From a virus: a DNA stretch of 34,071 nucleotides. The DNA is taken from positions 1-34,071 of the IMG/VR virus record IMGVR_UViG_3300037882_001071, one strand, 5' to 3'. The notes below the pieces were generated by a model. That model ran no database searches and was not told where the DNA came from. It was given only the letters and a program-made list of their open reading frames with translations. Made by a program: the position numbers and the translations under genes. Of the stretch, positions 4,210 through 11,932 are shown piece by piece. Numbering within the stretch: the first letter of the stretch is position 1; each line of letters opens with the position of its first letter.

Positions 4210-5781
4210 ATGCAGAAGGAAAAGACACCAAGACTTTCCAGAGATGAAAATGTAGCACGTGGGTATGCCGTCTACACTCCTCATGGAACTTACCGTAACC
4301 CAATTCCAGGTAAACTGCGTGGTTACGTAGACTCAGGTCACTTGAAAGTGGATGAGTGGGGACGCCCCTATATCACAGATCAGTTCGATGCTGACATCAA
4401 GGCTATTACTAAGCCTGAACTTCAAAGCCTCTCCAGCGGTGACACCTTTACCCGCATGTTGGAGTCTCTTGAAATCGATGAGATCGAAACTCTTTCTACC
4501 AAAATCACTACCTCTTACGACAAGGATGCCCTCTTCTATTTCCTTGAGGATAAGCCTGCTGAGCTAGTCGCTATGGAAGCAGAGCTTCAGAACAGAATAG
4601 ATGCTTACTGGACTCCAGAGCGTAAGGCTATTCAGTCAGCAAACAATAAGGCTCAGAATACCTATGACGTATCTGTAGTAAGGATTGAGAACGCTCGTAG
4701 GGATGTCGAGAAGATTCTTGAGAAGAACCAGGAGATCATCGATAACGCTATCGCTCGTAAGAACAATCCTGCACTAGCAGCGTCTCAGGACAAAATCTCA
4801 GCAATCATCACCGACAAGAAGCGTTCCTCTCTTCAGCGTCTTGAAGCCATTCAAGAAGGTCAGAAGTCAGCAGGAGCAGCCTTCAACGCTAAGCGTGAGA
4901 TTGTCCTAGCTATCGCAGCATTCCTTGGTAAAGGTCTTGATAAGGACACCATCGAGACTCACATTTCAAAGATGGATACCTTCTCAGCACTAGCCTATAA
5001 GAATGAGAAGAAAGAATTCAACCGCCTCTTCAAGGATACAACATCCTGGATTCACCACAAGAATCAGATCAAGCTTTGGTGGGATCTAGTCGGCTGGATC
5101 GCTGAAGGAATGAAGAATTCCAAGATCCGCACTAAGACCAAGGATCAGTTCTACCTCATCATGGTCATGGTTGCTCTGCATCAAGCTAAGGACAACGACT
5201 CACGAGGACTGGTAGCGTTCAGGTACTTAACTAGGACTACTGTTGTTAGTCAGAAAAGTCTGAGCCTTGATCCTCGTGGTCTAGGAGAGAAGTTCACAGC
5301 TTACGAGAAGTTCGGTTACATCTCTTACGAGAAGGGTGTTCAGGGTGGAGTAGCTTCAAGAGCAGGCATCAAGCCTTACACTGGAACTCTTACTGTAGAG
5401 GATGCTAAGGCTGCTATCGAAGCTATCATGAACATCTTCAGTGAGTCTCCTTTCCAGGCTGAGCTTGATCTAGTTCTGAGCCTTGTAACTAGGACTACTG
5501 TTGTTAGTCAGAAAACTCTGACTCCTCCTGCCTACGATGATCAGGATCTTGAGAATGCTGTAGATGATCTGCTAGCAGTCTTTGTTCCTATCTCTCGTTC
5601 AGCAGCAGACGAGCGTATTGCAGAGCGTCAGATTGAATCTGTTGACTTTGAAGCTGCTAAGGAAACTTACCTTGCAGAGCAGGCAGAAAGAATCAACAAG
5701 CACCTTGAATCAGGAGTAGGGTTTCAGCCTCGTCAGTGGTACTCCCAGAGCCCTCAGATCCACGCTGAGGCGTTAGTTTAA
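4210..5781 (+). CDS. Candidate DNA-binding/replication protein, 523 aa, containing two in-frame repeat copies
   Basis: AAGGAG lies 8 nt before the ATG. Residues about 85-220 are long charged helices (coiled-coil-like). Residues about 290-400 resemble a winged helix: a helix (KDQFYLIMVMVALHQ), then LVAFRYLTRTTVVSQKSL, then FTAYEKFGYISYEKG, like the classic end of recognition helix and wing. The C-terminus is acidic and helical. Two copies of the dispersed 32-bp DNA repeat are read in frame as TRTTVVSQK(S/T)L at residues 341-351 and 427-437. A large DNA-binding protein behind a structured leader, with repeat sites inside its gene, fits an initiator whose origin lies in its own gene (as with lambda O). 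I recognise no known Rep family, so this remains inference. Confidence 0.6.
   Translation: MQKEKTPRLSRDENVARGYAVYTPHGTYRNPIPGKLRGYVDSGHLKVDEWGRPYITDQFDADIKAITKPELQSLSSGDTFTRMLESLEIDEIETLSTKITTSYDKDALFYFLEDKPAELVAMEAELQNRIDAYWTPERKAIQSANNKAQNTYDVSVVRIENARRDVEKILEKNQEIIDNAIARKNNPALAASQDKISAIITDKKRSSLQRLEAIQEGQKSAGAAFNAKREIVLAIAAFLGKGLDKDTIETHISKMDTFSALAYKNEKKEFNRLFKDTTSWIHHKNQIKLWWDLVGWIAEGMKNSKIRTKTKDQFYLIMVMVALHQAKDNDSRGLVAFRYLTRTTVVSQKSLSLDPRGLGEKFTAYEKFGYISYEKGVQGGVASRAGIKPYTGTLTVEDAKAAIEAIMNIFSESPFQAELDLVLSLVTRTTVVSQKTLTPPAYDDQDLENAVDDLLAVFVPISRSAADERIAERQIESVDFEAAKETYLAEQAERINKHLESGVGFQPRQWYSQSPQIHAEALV
5230..5261 (+). repeat. Dispersed 32-bp repeat, copy 5 (inside a gene)
   Basis: A full match to the core: begins ACTAGGACTACTG, ends TCAGAAAAGTCT. 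It is read in frame as TRTTVVSQKS within the 523-aa protein and has the GGACTAC variant seen in copies 1 and 3. Confidence 0.95.
5488..5519 (+). repeat. Dispersed 32-bp repeat, copy 6 (inside a gene)
   Basis: A full match to the core with the GGACTAC variant and CTCT end, exactly 258 nt (86 codons) after copy 5 and so in the same frame (TRTTVVSQKTL). The flanking bases of the two copies are not similar, so this is not a larger protein repeat. Confidence 0.95.
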
Positions 5782-5883: not shown

Positions 5884-5932
5884 TTATAGTATGAGGCAGA
5901 GATGCTGCCTTTAAAGAGAAAAGGTAATTAAA

Positions 5933-6274
5933 ATGGCGAACGAATTCTATAAGCAATTTCCTAAGTACAAGACCTTCTTCCGTGAGGGTACTAAAGAAGA
6001 AATTGCAGCTCTAAGCCCTGCTGATAAACTTCGCTACCTTCAAGAAATTGAAGATCCTAAGCTAGAAGATCGCAGACTAGAATTCCAGAATAAAGTACAA
6101 GCCCTGCTAGAGGAATACCAAGACGCTCTTGCTCCTCGCCTTAGAGATAAGGATGACTGGAAGGGTGAGATGGGAAGATTTACCGTTAACGGTAATTATT
6201 ACTACATCGTTCACGACTGGGAAAAGAAAGATGTATGTGAAGTTTGCCTTGAAGATCTAGACGACGAAGACTGA
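5933..6274 (+). CDS. Acidic hypothetical protein, 113 aa
   Basis: First gene behind the promoter at 5854, with AAAAGG before the ATG. It is helical and rich in Lys/Glu/Asp (PADKLRYLQEIEDPKLEDRR, then ALLEEYQDALAPRLRDK), followed by a short beta-like part (GRFTVNGNYYYIVHDW), and ends in a strongly acidic tail with two cysteines (CEVCLEDLDDED). A very acidic small early phage protein could be a DNA mimic or a host-protein inhibitor, but there is no direct evidence. No family recognised. Confidence 0.7.
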   Translation: MANEFYKQFPKYKTFFREGTKEEIAALSPADKLRYLQEIEDPKLEDRRLEFQNKVQALLEEYQDALAPRLRDKDDWKGEMGRFTVNGNYYYIVHDWEKKDVCEVCLEDLDDED

Positions 6275-6282
6275 AATTACTT

Positions 6283-6317
6283 GAGTTGGGCATCTAGCTA
6301 AGGCTGGGTGCCCACTC
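6283..6317 (+). promoter_or_regulatory. Stem-loop between two genes
   Basis: TGGGCA (with GAG before it) pairs with TGCCCA (with CTC after it) around a 16-nt loop, giving about 9 bp with one bulged T. It lies between the 113-aa and 95-aa genes and ends shortly before the AGGAG ribosome-binding site. No T-run follows, so processing or translation control is more likely than termination. Confidence 0.45.
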
Positions 6318-6340
6318 TACTGCCCTTTAGGAGAATTAAC

Positions 6341-6628
6341 ATGCAGATTGAAGTATCTCAAGCAGTTTATGACCACTTAATGTTCTGGCAAGACAGGATG
6401 CAGAAAGATTCAAATAACATTGCTGCTGAAATGGCAGATTATTATAACGAACCTATTGAGTATTGCCAGATTGATTTAGATCTTGTTATTCATACTCTTG
6501 CTAACGAACCTCTAGCTCAATCTCTACGAAAGCACAGAAGCAAGTATCAGGAGTTTACTCATAATTACTACAGCACGTTTGATCAAAGTTTTGAAGCAGC
6601 GACAAGGATTTCAGATGAAGATATGTAA
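6341..6628 (+). CDS. Hypothetical protein, 95 aa
   Basis: The ATG at 6341 with AGGAG 8 nt upstream is preferred to an upstream GTG at 6308 that would run through the stem-loop. The protein is helical (VYDHLMFWQDRMQKDSNNIA...), acidic, and has no cysteine motif or membrane segment. The downstream HNH gene starts 14 nt before its stop, so the two are coupled. No family recognised. Confidence 0.7.
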   Translation: MQIEVSQAVYDHLMFWQDRMQKDSNNIAAEMADYYNEPIEYCQIDLDLVIHTLANEPLAQSLRKHRSKYQEFTHNYYSTFDQSFEAATRISDEDM

Positions 6629-7343
6629 TACCTGTAAAGAAGGTAAGCCGTTAGATGCATATGAGAAGGGATCTACTTATAAGGGTGGGTTCCGTCCTCA
6701 ATGCAAAGCTTGTAGAAAGCTTAAACAAAAGCAACGTGCAGCAAAAGGGCTTTCTGAGGATTCACATTTCCATGGAACTTACACAGGGTACACAAGCTAC
6801 AATTGTAAATGTACCAAATGTAAGAAAGCAGCGGCTGATAGGCAGAGGCAAAAAAGAGCACGTAATAAAGCTTCTTTAGAAGATCGTAAAGCAAATACAG
6901 TTATTCCACCAGAATTTCACGGAACAGTAAAAGGCTACAGGCACTACTTCTGTAGATGTGAACCTTGCAAGACCGCTGAAAAAGAATATAAGGCAAAGCG
7001 CTGGGCTAACATGACGCCAGAACAAAAGAAAGAACATGCGCTACGTTATATTTCTCATTCAATTACAGGCAGAAGAAAAAGACGTAATAAGGAAAAAGCA
7101 GCTAAGCTTCCCATTGATGATAGACATATTGCCAATGCTTATTTAAGATGTAGCATTAACGATGTTTGTTTTTATTGTGGTGAAGTTAAAGAAGAAATGC
7201 ACTGGGATCATTTTTACCCTGTAAGTAAAAATGGAACTGATCACTGGTGGAATATGAAGAGAGCTTGTAAGGATTGTAATTTAAGCAAGTATAACAGATG
7301 TGGTACTTGGTGGATATTGAAAAGAGGAAATGTAAATGTTTGA
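6615..7343 (+). CDS. HNH endonuclease with zinc ribbon and two HGT-GY modules, 242 aa
   Basis: Residues about 184-225 form a clear HNH nuclease: CFYCG, then HWDHFYPVSKNG, D..WN, then CKDCNLSK. The DH pair supplies catalytic metal binding and the two CxxC pairs hold a structural zinc. The N-terminus has another CxxC...CxxC ribbon (residues 4-33). Two repeated modules follow (FHGTYTGYTSYNCKCTKCK and FHGTVKGYRHYFCRCEPCK) that probably bind DNA. The start ATG at 6615 has AAGGA 6 nt upstream; a longer reading would run back into the previous gene. By eye the gene is more AT-rich than its neighbours, fitting a mobile homing-type nuclease. It nicks or cuts DNA; the target is unknown. Confidence 0.9.
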   Translation: MKICNTCKEGKPLDAYEKGSTYKGGFRPQCKACRKLKQKQRAAKGLSEDSHFHGTYTGYTSYNCKCTKCKKAAADRQRQKRARNKASLEDRKANTVIPPEFHGTVKGYRHYFCRCEPCKTAEKEYKAKRWANMTPEQKKEHALRYISHSITGRRKRRNKEKAAKLPIDDRHIANAYLRCSINDVCFYCGEVKEEMHWDHFYPVSKNGTDHWWNMKRACKDCNLSKYNRCGTWWILKRGNVNV

Positions 7344-7536
7344 TAGTGCATATTCAGTAGATCTTAAGGCAAAGGTAATCGTAGATGAGGGAGAAATTAT
7401 TGCTCTTATGATTTTTATGCCTGATGGTTCTTCACTTTCTTTTGCTCTACCTAACTTGAAAGCTATGAAAGACTATAATGATCAGACTTTTAAGGAAGCA
7501 CTTGAGGAAAAGATCTTAAACAAGGAATCCGATTAG
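7336..7536 (+). CDS. Hypothetical protein, 66 aa
   Basis: The start overlaps the end of the HNH gene by 8 nt, with AGAGGAA upstream. It begins MFDSAYSVDLKAKVIVDEGE, then LMIFMPDGSSLSFALP, suggesting three or four beta strands, and has a helical acidic C-terminus. It could be a small accessory or anti-nuclease partner because of the overlap, but no family is recognised. Confidence 0.65.
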   Translation: MFDSAYSVDLKAKVIVDEGEIIALMIFMPDGSSLSFALPNLKAMKDYNDQTFKEALEEKILNKESD

Positions 7537-7994: not shown

Positions 7995-9032
7995 ATGTCC
8001 AACAAGCTTAAGAACTTCTGGACCATGAGAACGGGAGTTACAGTACTCTCTCTTCCACTTTTGACAATTACATTGCTTGCAGGAGCCTTCGGAGCATATG
8101 AGATCCTGACTTCTTATGCAGGCTTCAGTCCTGAATGGGCATGGGGAGCAGCTATCGTCATCGACCTTACAGGTCTTTGGTTAGCATTCTTCACAACCAT
8201 CCTGGCAAAAACAGGAGCAGCAGTAACCAGCATTAAGCGCTCTACCTATTTTGTTATTTGTGTCAGTGTTCTTCTGAATGCTTTCCACGGATGGACAGTA
8301 GGATCTCAGCTAGGTACTGGAACTGTCTCACTAATTGCAGGAGGTGTAGGAGCACTTGTTTCAGCTATGTTCCCGATCTTCTCAGCCATGATCTTCCACT
8401 ACAACCTAACCTTGATTACCTTTGAGTACGACAAGGAAGCAGGACACATCCTGCCTCGCAAGCCTACTCTTCCTAAAGGTAAGTACAGAAACAAGGCACG
8501 TGAGAAAGAGATCATGACTAAGCACGCAAACCTTCAGTACGACTTCCAGGACTGGAACATGGAACGAGAAAAGGCAGAACAGCAGAACAAGACAGGACAG
8601 AGCGAACGAACATTAAAGGCTGAAGGTAGTGTTCCGAACGAACAAACGAACAATCTTGAGATTCGTTCGAACGAACAATTTGCTCTAAGGTCATCCGAAC
8701 GAACAAACGAACAAACGAACATTGAAGTTGCGAACAACGAACAAGAGATGTTCGCGAACAAACTAAACGAACGAACAAACGAACAAGTAGCGAACGAACA
8801 ACTTAAAGACCAGGTAGATCAGTTGTTCGCCGAACAAACACTTCAGAATATTGCAGCAACAATGACGCTCAAGGAAGCCATTGAGGCTCTACTAGATGCA
8901 GGCATTGAAGATCCTAAGAAGCTTCAGGCAAAGATTGCCGAACAGAACATCCTAGACAGGAAGGGTAATACTCCTACTGTTGAGGCTGTACGAACAACAA
9001 AAAATAGAATCTTGAACAGCCGAACAAACTAA
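7995..9032 (+). CDS. DUF2637/Spd-like membrane protein with a tail encoded by GAAC sites, 345 aa
   Basis: Four hydrophobic segments lie in the first 135 residues (VTVLSLPLLTITLLAGAFGA; WAWGAAIVIDLTGLWLAFF; YFVICVSVLLNAF; SLIAGGVGALVSAMFPIFSA), with the IDLTGLW pattern of DUF2637 membrane proteins, several of which (SpdB2 type) act in plasmid spread along mycelium. From about residue 203 the cytosolic tail is low-complexity, made of repeated E-R-T-N-E-Q units, because the DNA there is an array of GAAC sites read in several frames. AAAGG precedes the ATG. It is followed by the FtsK/TraB-like gene. A role in DNA transfer or partition is inferred from context. Confidence 0.75.
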   Translation: MSNKLKNFWTMRTGVTVLSLPLLTITLLAGAFGAYEILTSYAGFSPEWAWGAAIVIDLTGLWLAFFTTILAKTGAAVTSIKRSTYFVICVSVLLNAFHGWTVGSQLGTGTVSLIAGGVGALVSAMFPIFSAMIFHYNLTLITFEYDKEAGHILPRKPTLPKGKYRNKAREKEIMTKHANLQYDFQDWNMEREKAEQQNKTGQSERTLKAEGSVPNEQTNNLEIRSNEQFALRSSERTNEQTNIEVANNEQEMFANKLNERTNEQVANEQLKDQVDQLFAEQTLQNIAATMTLKEAIEALLDAGIEDPKKLQAKIAEQNILDRKGNTPTVEAVRTTKNRILNSRTN

Positions 9033-9175
9033 ACGAACAATATTATGTTCGCGAACAAGGGATGTTCGAACAAACGAACAATTCAAACGAACGAACAAGG
9101 GATGTTCGAACAAACGAACAATATTATGTTCGCGAACAAACTAAACGAACGAACATCCCTTGTTCGAACAATTGA
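8601..9175. repeat. Dense GAAC/GTTC site array (clt/TRS-like)
   Basis: About 45 GAAC or GTTC tetramers lie in about 575 bp, mostly as CGAACAA, ACGAACAA or GTTCGCGAAC. Within the coding part nearly all are in the GAAC orientation; in the non-coding part (9033-9175) both orientations occur. Longer units are repeated: a 29-bp unit at 9053-9081 and 9093-9121 (period 40), and a 28-bp unit at 9031-9058 and 9112-9139 (period 81). It lies directly upstream of the FtsK/TraB-like operon, the place of the clt locus in Streptomyces plasmids, where TraB binds 8-bp direct repeats. Confidence 0.9.
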
Positions 9176-9190
9176 GAGGATGAGACTGCA

Positions 9191-9628
9191 ATGTTGAACA
9201 ACACTGAGATTACCTTAGCTCACAGACAGGCATACACATATTTGGATAAGTGGTTCAGGCTACAGCACAAGTTGGATTTCTGGGGAAAGCATCCAATCCT
9301 GGCTTACAACCTTTACTACGGAAGACAGCCTGTCATCCAATACCCAAAAGATCCTAATCTAAGTTACAAGATCTTGAGCAACAAATGGCATTACGTAGCC
9401 TTCTTCCACAAGGACTTTCCTGATGTCTTCTACGTACCGGAACTGATTACTCCACAGACATCAGCCAAAGTACATAGAGAAATGACAAGCTTCTTCAATA
9501 AGTACAAGGCACTTGAAGCAGCACGTGAACAGGATTACATCATGGATGATCCTAAGACACGAGGAAAGCGTTACGAATCAAAAGGATACCGAGAAGACAA
9601 GGCTTATTACGAGAGAGCAGGTTACTGA
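9191..9628 (+). CDS. Hypothetical protein, 145 aa, upstream of translocase
   Basis: The ATG follows the site array by 15 nt, with an AGAGGATGAG ribosome-binding region. The sequence is rich in Tyr, Trp and basic residues (QAYTYLDKWFRLQHKLDFWG; NKWHYVAFFHKDFPDVFYV) and ends in a basic tail (TRGKRYESKGYREDKAYYE). It is two nt before the translocase gene and so co-translated. It could bind the array or the translocase, but no family is recognised. Confidence 0.7.
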   Translation: MLNNTEITLAHRQAYTYLDKWFRLQHKLDFWGKHPILAYNLYYGRQPVIQYPKDPNLSYKILSNKWHYVAFFHKDFPDVFYVPELITPQTSAKVHREMTSFFNKYKALEAAREQDYIMDDPKTRGKRYESKGYREDKAYYERAGY

Positions 9629-9630
9629 TC

Positions 9631-11583
9631 ATGTCGAACACCAGGAACATCAACTTCGCCAACGATACTGGCGAATTCATCTACAATGATTATAAAGTCT
9701 ATACCATGCCTGCCTCTGTCGTTGCAGGTGGATTGCTTCTAGCAGTAGTGTTCAGGGCTGTTATGTGGATTATGATTCACTTAGGTGACTACTCACCTAT
9801 CATGATTACTTCAATTGCTACCGTAGGAATCCTGGTAGTTGCCTCATCTTGCTTGTACTTAGGTTACAGGCTTTATGCCTTCAGAGAGTTCCTGAACAAC
9901 GAACTACTTCTAACTAAGCACGCTGTGATTTCAGGATTGGTAGTTGCTGCATTCTTCGTGATTGCAATGTGGGAGAATGTCGGACAGTTCATGTTCGGAG
10001 TTTGGACTCTTGCATTCTTCGCTTTCGCAGCTATCGGATTACCTTTGAGCTGGGCAATCAGGCGTTGGGCTGATAAGCGTCACGGACATGCGCCTATTGT
10101 TGAAGAGGTTAAGACATCATTCTGGGCTGATGCAGGATTTGGATCTACTAATGAAGTTGATTGTCATGCAATTCCTGGTGGCTATCTGCACAAGCTGAAG
10201 CTAGATCCGAAGGTTACTGCTGCTGACTTACAGAAGGAGGCTACGCTAATCGCTAAGAACTACAATACTAACGTAAAGAAGATCCGCATTACAGAAGATG
10301 CTGATGATACAAACTTTGCATACGTTACTAAGTTCGATAACGAACCTTTCGCTGATGATAAGCTATGGATTGGTCCTGATAAGCCTGGTCTAAGCATTGC
10401 TGAGCCTATCGAGATTGCAACTTACGACATCGGTAACCGTCAGAGCATTTATCTTTCAGGTAAGAATGGTGCTAGCTGTCACCACTGGTTGACTGTAGGT
10501 ATGTCAGGTTCAGGTAAGACTTATGCATGGCAGGGTATTTATGCATCAGTTCTTAACCGTACTGAGGTAAGCCTAGTGTATATCGATGCATCTAAGGGTG
10601 TTGCTTCTGGAATGCCTTTGGCATCAGGTATTGAGTGGTTTGCTTGGGATATGGATTCAGCAATTGATGTTATTAACGGAGTCCAGAGAGCTATCAAGGC
10701 ACGTCAGAGCGCACTAACTCAGAAGGGCTTGCCTTATTGGAAGCCTGGATGTGGAATGAACTTCATCATTTTCCATGTAGAAGAAGCAGCAGATTACATC
10801 AGCAACAAAGAAGCTAACGATAAGCTGACTCATATTGCTAGGGCTGCCCGTTCTGCTGGAATTGCACTGATCTACTCTCTACAGCGTGCTACTAACAAGG
10901 AATTGCCTGTAACACTAAGAGAGCAGCTTGAAGGACGTATGACTTTCAAGGTAGGGCAGAAGAAGGAAAATGCTCTAGCTCTTTCTGGAACCTCTCAGGA
11001 AGCAGGAGCACAAGCACAGAACATCCCTGTAAAGGGTGGTTTCTACATGACTTCACCTTACATCGATGATTTCTACGCTGGAAATATCCTTCGAGTAGAT
11101 GCATTCGATGAGCAAGATTTAGAAAGAGCAGTTGAGCAGGGTGCAATTAACAGAACTCCATTGGATAATGTTACTGCATCAGCATTCGGTCAGGCTTACT
11201 ACGATTACCGCGCACAAGTAGATGCAGGTTTAACCGAATGGCAGAGAATCAAGGCTGCTAGGGGAGCACAGGAACAGCCTCAGGAAGGCACTTTTAAGGG
11301 ACCTGAGAGCCACGCTGAGGCTCCAACAGAAGAGTTTAATACAGAGACACCTAAGAAGAATAAAGCCTCTAATTTAAACTCTGACAGGCAGTCTTTCATC
11401 GATGGATTGTGGGACTTGATCCTTGAGTTCACTCAAGACACCCCAGAGTTCACTAGGAAAGATATCAAGGATTATGCAATGCTAGAACTTGAGAAGTCTG
11501 AGAGTTGGATTTACGCTAGACTTAAGGAATTTATTGCAGAAGGAAAGCTAGGAGAGAATGGGAACAAACTGTTCGTCAAATAA
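9631..11583 (+). CDS. FtsK/SpoIIIE/TraB-family DNA translocase, 650 aa
   Basis: Three to four membrane segments lie in the first 145 residues (SVVAGGLLLAVVFRAVMWIM; TSIATVGILVVASSCLYLGY; ISGLVVAAFFVIAMW; TLAFFAFAAIGLPLSWAI). The motor domain has Walker A GMSGSGKT at residues 290-297, Walker B FIIFHVEEA at 378-386, and the FtsK-type stretch ARAARSAGIALIYSLQRAT. The last 70 residues (RQSFIDGLWDLILEFTQDTP...) form a winged-helix-like domain, as in FtsK gamma and TraB, which read short DNA repeats. It pumps double-stranded DNA with ATP as a membrane hexamer. Beside a DUF2637 protein and a repeat array, it fits a TraB-like conjugation protein better than a cell-division FtsK. It ends at a clear terminator. 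Confidence 0.9.
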   Translation: MSNTRNINFANDTGEFIYNDYKVYTMPASVVAGGLLLAVVFRAVMWIMIHLGDYSPIMITSIATVGILVVASSCLYLGYRLYAFREFLNNELLLTKHAVISGLVVAAFFVIAMWENVGQFMFGVWTLAFFAFAAIGLPLSWAIRRWADKRHGHAPIVEEVKTSFWADAGFGSTNEVDCHAIPGGYLHKLKLDPKVTAADLQKEATLIAKNYNTNVKKIRITEDADDTNFAYVTKFDNEPFADDKLWIGPDKPGLSIAEPIEIATYDIGNRQSIYLSGKNGASCHHWLTVGMSGSGKTYAWQGIYASVLNRTEVSLVYIDASKGVASGMPLASGIEWFAWDMDSAIDVINGVQRAIKARQSALTQKGLPYWKPGCGMNFIIFHVEEAADYISNKEANDKLTHIARAARSAGIALIYSLQRATNKELPVTLREQLEGRMTFKVGQKKENALALSGTSQEAGAQAQNIPVKGGFYMTSPYIDDFYAGNILRVDAFDEQDLERAVEQGAINRTPLDNVTASAFGQAYYDYRAQVDAGLTEWQRIKAARGAQEQPQEGTFKGPESHAEAPTEEFNTETPKKNKASNLNSDRQSFIDGLWDLILEFTQDTPEFTRKDIKDYAMLELEKSESWIYARLKEFIAEGKLGENGNKLFVK

Positions 11584-11712: not shown

Positions 11713-11799
11713 GGGCTAGAGAGGCATACTGGCATGTGCCTTCGGTATGGCTAATGTACGGAAGAATTGTTGCTGATCCTCGCCTTACTTACGGAAGGA

Positions 11800-11827
11800 T
11801 TGCTCTCTCTGCCTCTCTCCCTATAAT
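11800..11827 (+). promoter_or_regulatory. Possible promoter reading into the iterons
   Basis: TTGCTC (11800-11805), a 16-nt spacer and a perfect TATAAT (11822-11827). There is no gene downstream before the terminator at 11938, so any transcript would be a short RNA of about 110 nt covering the CCTAGGAAT array, like a primer or control RNA at an origin. Confidence 0.4.
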
Positions 11828-11842
11828 GACCTGCTGTTTTAC

Positions 11843-11930
11843 CCTAGGAATTGCCTAGGAATGAAGCTAGGAATGACCCTAGGAACGCCTAGGAATGGAG
11901 TCCGAAGCACCTAGGAATTTGCCTAGGAAT
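11843..11930 (+). repeat. Seven CCTAGGAAT iterons with helical phasing
   Basis: Copies start at 11843, 11854, 11866 (GCTAGGAAT), 11878 (CCTAGGAAC), 11888, 11910 and 11922. Spacings are 11, 12, 12, 10, 22 and 12 nt, about one DNA turn each, with one gap of two turns. All are in one orientation, as expected of a cooperative protein binding on one face, for example a replication initiator, partition protein or repressor. No protein is tied to them yet. The only other feature in the gap is the inverted repeat to the left. Confidence 0.9.
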
Positions 11931-11932
11931 GC

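Follow-up and report, generated by a model that had tools for sequence, protein, structure and literature searches.

Arrays of short sites that are read by a DNA-binding protein encoded on the same element are already known from clt loci, iterons and plasmid centromeres. Known TraB proteins bind short clt repeats with a C-terminal winged helix (PMC3583192, PMC4170104), the bound repeat unit being 7-9 bp long (PMC3583192). Known clt loci lie mainly 3' of traB, with repeats in one orientation, and the clt of pWTY27 overlaps the tra gene by 16 bp (PMC3583192). SpdB2 of pSVH1 has been reported as a DNA-binding membrane protein with TraB as an interaction partner (PMC4170104). SpdB2/DUF2637 proteins of Streptomyces plasmids and AICEs are encoded beside traB, as is the membrane protein described here. 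Like the clt/TRS loci of pSVH1, pJV1 and pWTY27, the present locus combines an array of short sites on a mobile element with a proposed element-encoded reader beside its own gene, and it also encodes a TraB homologue. It differs from them in that one array (array A) lies inside a membrane-protein gene, with sites in both orientations, and in that a separate clt-like array (array B) is kept besides it.

Two site arrays in a TraB-bearing phage

The stretch of DNA analysed, a whole IMG/VR virus record of 34,071 bases (the window), comes from a tailed phage. The terminase, the major head protein and further structural genes were located on the minus strand from the list of open reading frames and PHROG matches. 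The terminase is nearest to those of Streptomyces and Microbacterium phages (~35% identity), a likeness that makes an actinobacterial host likely. The Streptomyces plasmid pWTY27 has the same gene order as the window, with a membrane protein followed by one or more small proteins and then traB. The small protein of the window was considered as a TraA and ruled out, as it has no similarity to TraA of pSN22.

The neighbouring translocase is a full-length TraB homologue: residues 97-644 of 650 match the NCBIfam model plasmid_TraB (NF041214, E 7.3e-68). Since the score of 230 bits is under the equivalog cut-off of 800, the protein is a divergent TraB homologue, and its identity to TraB proteins of Streptomyces plasmids is 25-33%. 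It has an FtsK/SpoIIIE-type ATPase motor, with the Walker A motif GMSGSGKT and a match of the profile from one alignment (A2) to FtsK structures (E 9e-17). In an alignment of seven TraB proteins, no stretch was conserved enough to serve as a search query.

Array B consists of seven copies of CTAGGAA at 11844-11929, all on the plus strand, starting 260 bp 3' of the traB stop codon. This is the layout of a clt, with short repeats of one orientation 3' of traB, and array B is a candidate clt that would be read by TraB.

Table 1 Features of the window and of compared elements (positions refer to the window unless another element is named).
Feature	Positions	Strand	Remarks
523-aa protein	4210-5781	+	without known family
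Membrane protein	7995-9032	+	345-aa ORF; SpdB/DUF2637-like by position and layout
Membrane-spanning part of the 345-aa protein	7995-8600	+	hydrophobic segments; phrog_10376, E 2e-7
Array A, block 1	8604-8835	+	24 GAAC/GTTC sites in linker code
C-terminal HTH-like domain, proposed reader of array A	8841-9029	+	63 residues, four predicted helices
Array A, block 2	~8992-9169	.	final codons of the membrane-protein gene and intergenic gap
145-aa protein between membrane protein and TraB	9191-9628	+	distant relative in L003
TraB-type DNA translocase	9631-11583	+	650 aa, C-terminal winged-helix region
Promoter-like element adjoining array B	11757-11836	+	conserved in L003
Array B, candidate clt	11843-11931	+	seven CTAGGAA (mostly CCTAGGAAT), 10-22 bp apart
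Counterpart of array B in L027	6533-6660 (L027)
In-gene array, pWTY27 (L017)	702-1088 (L017)		CGCGAAC; DUF2637 gene; partly one-frame
In-gene array, Thermobifida phage P1312			GGTCCGG
In-gene array, Thermobispora plasmid			CCGGTAC
In-gene array, pFRL2			GGGACCA

Array A is a dense set of GAAC/GTTC sites. Between 8601 and 9175 we counted 46 of them (37 on the plus strand, 9 on the minus strand), in agreement with an earlier count of about 45 in about 575 bp. The corresponding null, a first-order Markov model with the region's own dinucleotides, gave a mean of 8.7 and a maximum of 20 in 5000 simulations. The sites nearly always read CGAAC, mostly CGAACA(A), with recurring spacings of 4, 8, 11 and 13 bases and recurring dyads such as TGTTCGAACA. 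CGAACAA occurs 23 times in this region and not once in the rest of the 34-kb window; when both strands are counted, there are 25 copies against a null mean of 0.5 and maximum of 4. Array A does not have the layout of a clt, as it lies upstream of traB and its sites are of mixed orientation.

In the coding part of the region (8601-9032), CGAAC falls in all three reading frames (5, 7 and 11 copies), as expected from the earlier observation that the site unit is read in different frames. The array extends ~140 bases 3' of the membrane-protein stop codon. We then held the peptide fixed and sampled codons from the usage of the window in 10000 draws. Under this synonymous null the linker code at 8601-8840 contained 24 GAAC sites where 8.6 +/- 2.2 were expected, a count that was reached in 0 of the 10000 draws, and 16 CGAACA sites where 2.9 were expected. 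Because the sites occupy all frames, run past the stop codon and exceed the number compatible with synonymous choice, the constraint acts on the DNA, which bears out the proposal that a DNA function shapes the protein sequence.

The same proposal had treated all 430 coding bp as a low-complexity tail. This description fits 8601-8840, so that the array-written stretch comprises only ~80 residues of the membrane protein, and has to be withdrawn for 8841-9029, which is the ordinary code of a predicted helical domain, with 5 GAAC sites and no enrichment over its own null (1142 of 10000 draws). Because this unenriched domain code lies between them, array A forms two blocks, and these share their k-mer content (cosine 0.90).

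The domain between the blocks was predicted to be helical, with a pLDDT of 78 when folded from two sequences and a poor fold (pLDDT 60) from the single sequence. Its best fold match, a weak one, is the DNA-binding paired domain of Pax5 (Z 5.4), and Pfam gave no HTH match. We consider the domain HTH-like with moderate confidence. The window thus has an SpdB-like layout, with a membrane part, an array-bearing linker, a C-terminal domain and traB alongside. The Pfam model of DUF2637 (PF10935) did not match the membrane protein of the window or that of its phage relative L003, while the proteins of L017 and L020 did match, and homologue searches found no relatives of the window membrane protein.

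Arrays in the phage relatives

Homologue searches gave one close phage (L003) and, through an alignment, a second one (L027), in addition to distant TraB loci. The TraB of L003 is 68% identical to that of the window, with a near-identical ATPase core and a diverged C-terminus, and the TraB of L027 shows 46% identity. L003 lacks a GAAC array; instead, it carries 37 TATCAA sites in both orientations, part of them in the TraB linker code (4287-4530) and part intergenic (5070-5350). Of the 28 exact copies of TATCAAAA in the L003 contig, 27 are inside these two clusters. In L027, T[AG]TGAA sites occupy the two corresponding locations, and in both phages the intergenic block is located directly upstream of the gene for the 523-aa protein.

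A one-way array 3' of traB was found in all three phages, composed of CCTAGGAAT in the window, GTTTTAGG in L003 and AGT[CT]CTAGG in L027, and the promoter-like element beside it is well conserved between the window and L003. In the sequences of these relatives, array A is thus shifted in both motif and place while array B stays alike. A comparison of tail and array in relatives, which had been proposed as a check, found other motifs in other positions and no conserved tail peptide. Judged by eye, the window resembles L027 in the winged helix and array B, whereas in array A it is L003 that resembles L027. The block formed by array B and the promoter-like element has opposite orientations relative to traB in the window (11757-11931) and in L003 (4675-4865).

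The 523-aa protein has counterparts in L003 (5677-7299) and L027 (7594-7956) and belongs to a conserved type of 520-540 aa. It is 56% identical between the window and L003, though the array motifs are unrelated. It had no replication family match in Pfam, PHROG or NCBIfam and no PDB sequence match of note; possibly it is a replication initiator. Just upstream of traB, L003 (2210-2632, minus strand) and L027 (4056-4484, minus strand) also encode a 140-aa protein with a cysteine motif and a winged-helix-like part, of which no counterpart was seen in the window.

In-gene arrays and C-terminal domains in other elements

We calibrated the detection of arrays on known elements. A k-mer scan recovered known clt repeats directly 3' of traB, TGACACC in pWTY27 and CCGCACA in pSN22; PMC3583192 reports the latter as the clt repeat of pJV1. 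The same scan uncovered a second kind of array within the membrane-protein genes of several elements (Table 1). The CGCGAAC sites of pWTY27 are near the window motif in sequence. In the membrane protein of P1312 the order of parts is reversed (HTH-like part, array, membrane part), and the array is still in the linker. A long gene annotated opposite this array-bearing gene in P1312 (5431-7140, minus strand) may be spurious, a by-product of the stop-free array. The apparent spdB arrays of several GC-rich plasmids (L012, L014, L019 and L024) were mostly one-frame coiled-coil codon repeats and were left out as evidence.

We analyzed the covariation of arrays and proteins in a membrane-protein family (A6) collected from 80 genome loci and 21 viral loci, of which 100 were analysed. 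By the criterion used, in-gene arrays were present in none of the 73 chromosomal-type copies, which have a common tail, and in 19 of the 27 other copies, a few of which are near-duplicates. The in-gene motifs differed within the family and included GTGACAC, GGTCGC, GGTCAC, GGTTTC, CGTACG, GTACCC and CGACAC. For 25 loci, we compared array k-mers, excluding the code of the C-terminal domain, with the similarities of the domains, which were delimited by eye. The in-gene array followed its own C-terminal domain (Mantel r 0.74, p 2.5e-4, a correlation in which this test leaves some effect of shared ancestry), and r was 0.57 when the largest clade was cut to one member. The control against the membrane domain gave an r of 0.13 over the same 25 loci, with a partial value of -0.05. 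In the small sample of 8 loci with traB in reach, the array correlated with its own tail at 0.73 (p 0.008), against 0.22 (p 0.20) with the TraB winged helix. Arrays 3' of traB, in turn, correlated with the TraB winged helix at 0.57 (20 loci), and at 0.37 after allowing for the ATPase.

Individual loci illustrate both associations. L123 and L127 have the winged helix and the clt-like motif in common and differ in the in-gene array, while L116 and L125 share the in-gene array and differ in the clt-like motif. The membrane-proximal parts of L133, L134 and L136 can be aligned; the three differ in their C-terminal domains and in their arrays, with GGTCAC, GGTTTC and GGTCGC as the predicted targets. 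The array flanks the code of the C-terminal domain on both sides in L125, L039, L138 and other members, as in the window. At the level of sequence comparison, the in-gene array motif in A6 elements was shown to go with the C-terminal domain rather than with either TraB or the membrane domain. This correlation could in part reflect linkage, since domain and array are neighbours.

In the distant family member L138 (IMGVR_UViG_3300010371_000028, 5893-7248), 17 CGACACG sites lie within the gene and behind it, to either side of the code for the C-terminal domain. An extreme case is L129 (IMGVR_UViG_3300009852_000001, 5899-7446), with 29 CCGTACG sites and RTDEPRTDEPRTDE as the protein tail.

The reader of array A

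The reading we prefer, with a probability of about 0.57, is that the HTH-like domain at the C-terminus of the membrane protein binds the sites of the GAAC array, which lies in the gene of this same protein. The sequence comparisons support, as the simplest account, two reader-array pairs, one formed by TraB and the array 3' of traB and the other by the membrane-protein tail and the in-gene array. Applied to the window, CGAACAA would be the target of the tail and CCTAGGAAT the clt. Homology of the window's membrane protein to DUF2637 or to the A6 family tested above was not detectable, so that this step is one of analogy. The sites occupy the code of a linker taken as disordered, and the gap that follows the gene, flanking the code of the proposed DNA-binding domain, and the linker peptide would be free to take whatever array A spells. 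By way of the dense array, the membrane protein would keep the DNA of the phage at the membrane, next to the TraB pump, while TraB would separately recognise the clt-like array that lies 3' of its gene. The purpose would presumably be tethering for transfer, spread or segregation, and such a role is in line with pSVH1 SpdB2, reported as a membrane DNA binder that partners TraB (PMC4170104).

Other points also weigh against reading by the protein's own tail. The DNA binding of SpdB2 was reported to be non-specific, with no known site, in contrast to the in-gene recognition array proposed for the window. Moreover, L003 and L027 have their comparable arrays in the linker code of TraB and upstream of the gene for the 523-aa protein instead of in a membrane-protein gene, a placement that leaves some probability for reading by TraB and for a role in replication.

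In the first of these alternatives, array A would be a clt or orienting-sequence array whose CGAACAA units are bound by the TraB winged helix. The sequence-only reading had proposed this and we favoured it initially. A TraB homologue is encoded close by, known TraB proteins bind repeats of 7-9 bp (PMC3583192), and in L003 and L027 the array is partly in TraB linker code that adjoins the winged-helix code. Array B and the covariation tests led us to downgrade it to an unlikely explanation: a separate one-way array occupies the usual place of a clt, it is array B that tracks the winged helix by eye between the window and L027 while array A pairs L003 with L027, and the in-gene arrays of other elements track their own tails and not the winged helix. 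By this comparison, array A differs from known clt loci in probably not being read by TraB.

Array A could instead be an iteron-type replication origin or a partition site, read by the 523-aa protein or another DNA-binding protein of the phage. Iteron origins and plasmid centromeres likewise consist of dense short repeats, some of them inverted, with an element-encoded reader, and the RepA iteron of pWTY27 has sites in both orientations (PMC3583192); the intergenic blocks of L003 and L027 just upstream of the 523-aa gene fit such a role. We nevertheless judge it rather improbable. The window array is 2.8 kb past the end of the 523-aa gene, and the protein itself has no replication family match and is conserved between phages whose motifs are unrelated. 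The window sites also differ from iterons and centromeres in lying largely in coding sequence, and in spelling the linker of their own proposed reader, a membrane protein. The weakest alternative, neutral growth of a low-complexity linker by slippage with no DNA role, would account for variable linkers and for the mostly one-frame codon repeats in the coiled-coil tails of the Streptomyces plasmids L012, L014 and L019, but is very improbable given sites in all frames, in both orientations and past the stop codon, their excess over the synonymous null, the absence of arrays from chromosomal-type relatives and an array motif that tracks the C-terminal domain.

Returning to recognition by the protein's own tail, the locus may represent a widespread, self-referential type of gene in TraB-bearing actinobacterial mobile elements. 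Such a gene would encode a membrane-anchored DNA-binding protein with its own array in the linker code, domain and sites changing and moving as one cassette, and the window phage would be a low-GC example with the new motif CGAACAA; we give this generalization an even chance. In the literature searched, which included few subscription papers, we found no report of a membrane-protein gene whose linker code holds a recognition array for the encoded protein, and none of in-gene arrays among DUF2637 or SpdB2 proteins. If the generalization is true, the poorly understood Streptomyces-type spread membrane proteins gain a specific DNA target distinct from the clt of TraB, and a recognition site is stored within the gene of its reader. 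The membrane-protein gene of the window phage, like that of many plasmids, phages and integrated elements related to it, would then be a protein recipe and a docking site at once. This would help account for the high variability of spread-type membrane-protein genes, make binding motifs predictable from sequence alone and, in phages, point to a plasmid-like mode of tethering or passing on DNA.

A further repeat was observed in these phages. At ~2610-2815 the window has a GTTAGTCAGAAAACTCTGTAGA-type repeat in four direct copies, and L003 has three copies of a resembling TAACAACAGTA element at ~2034-2200. Unlike arrays A and B, these repeats are kept in sequence between the two phages.
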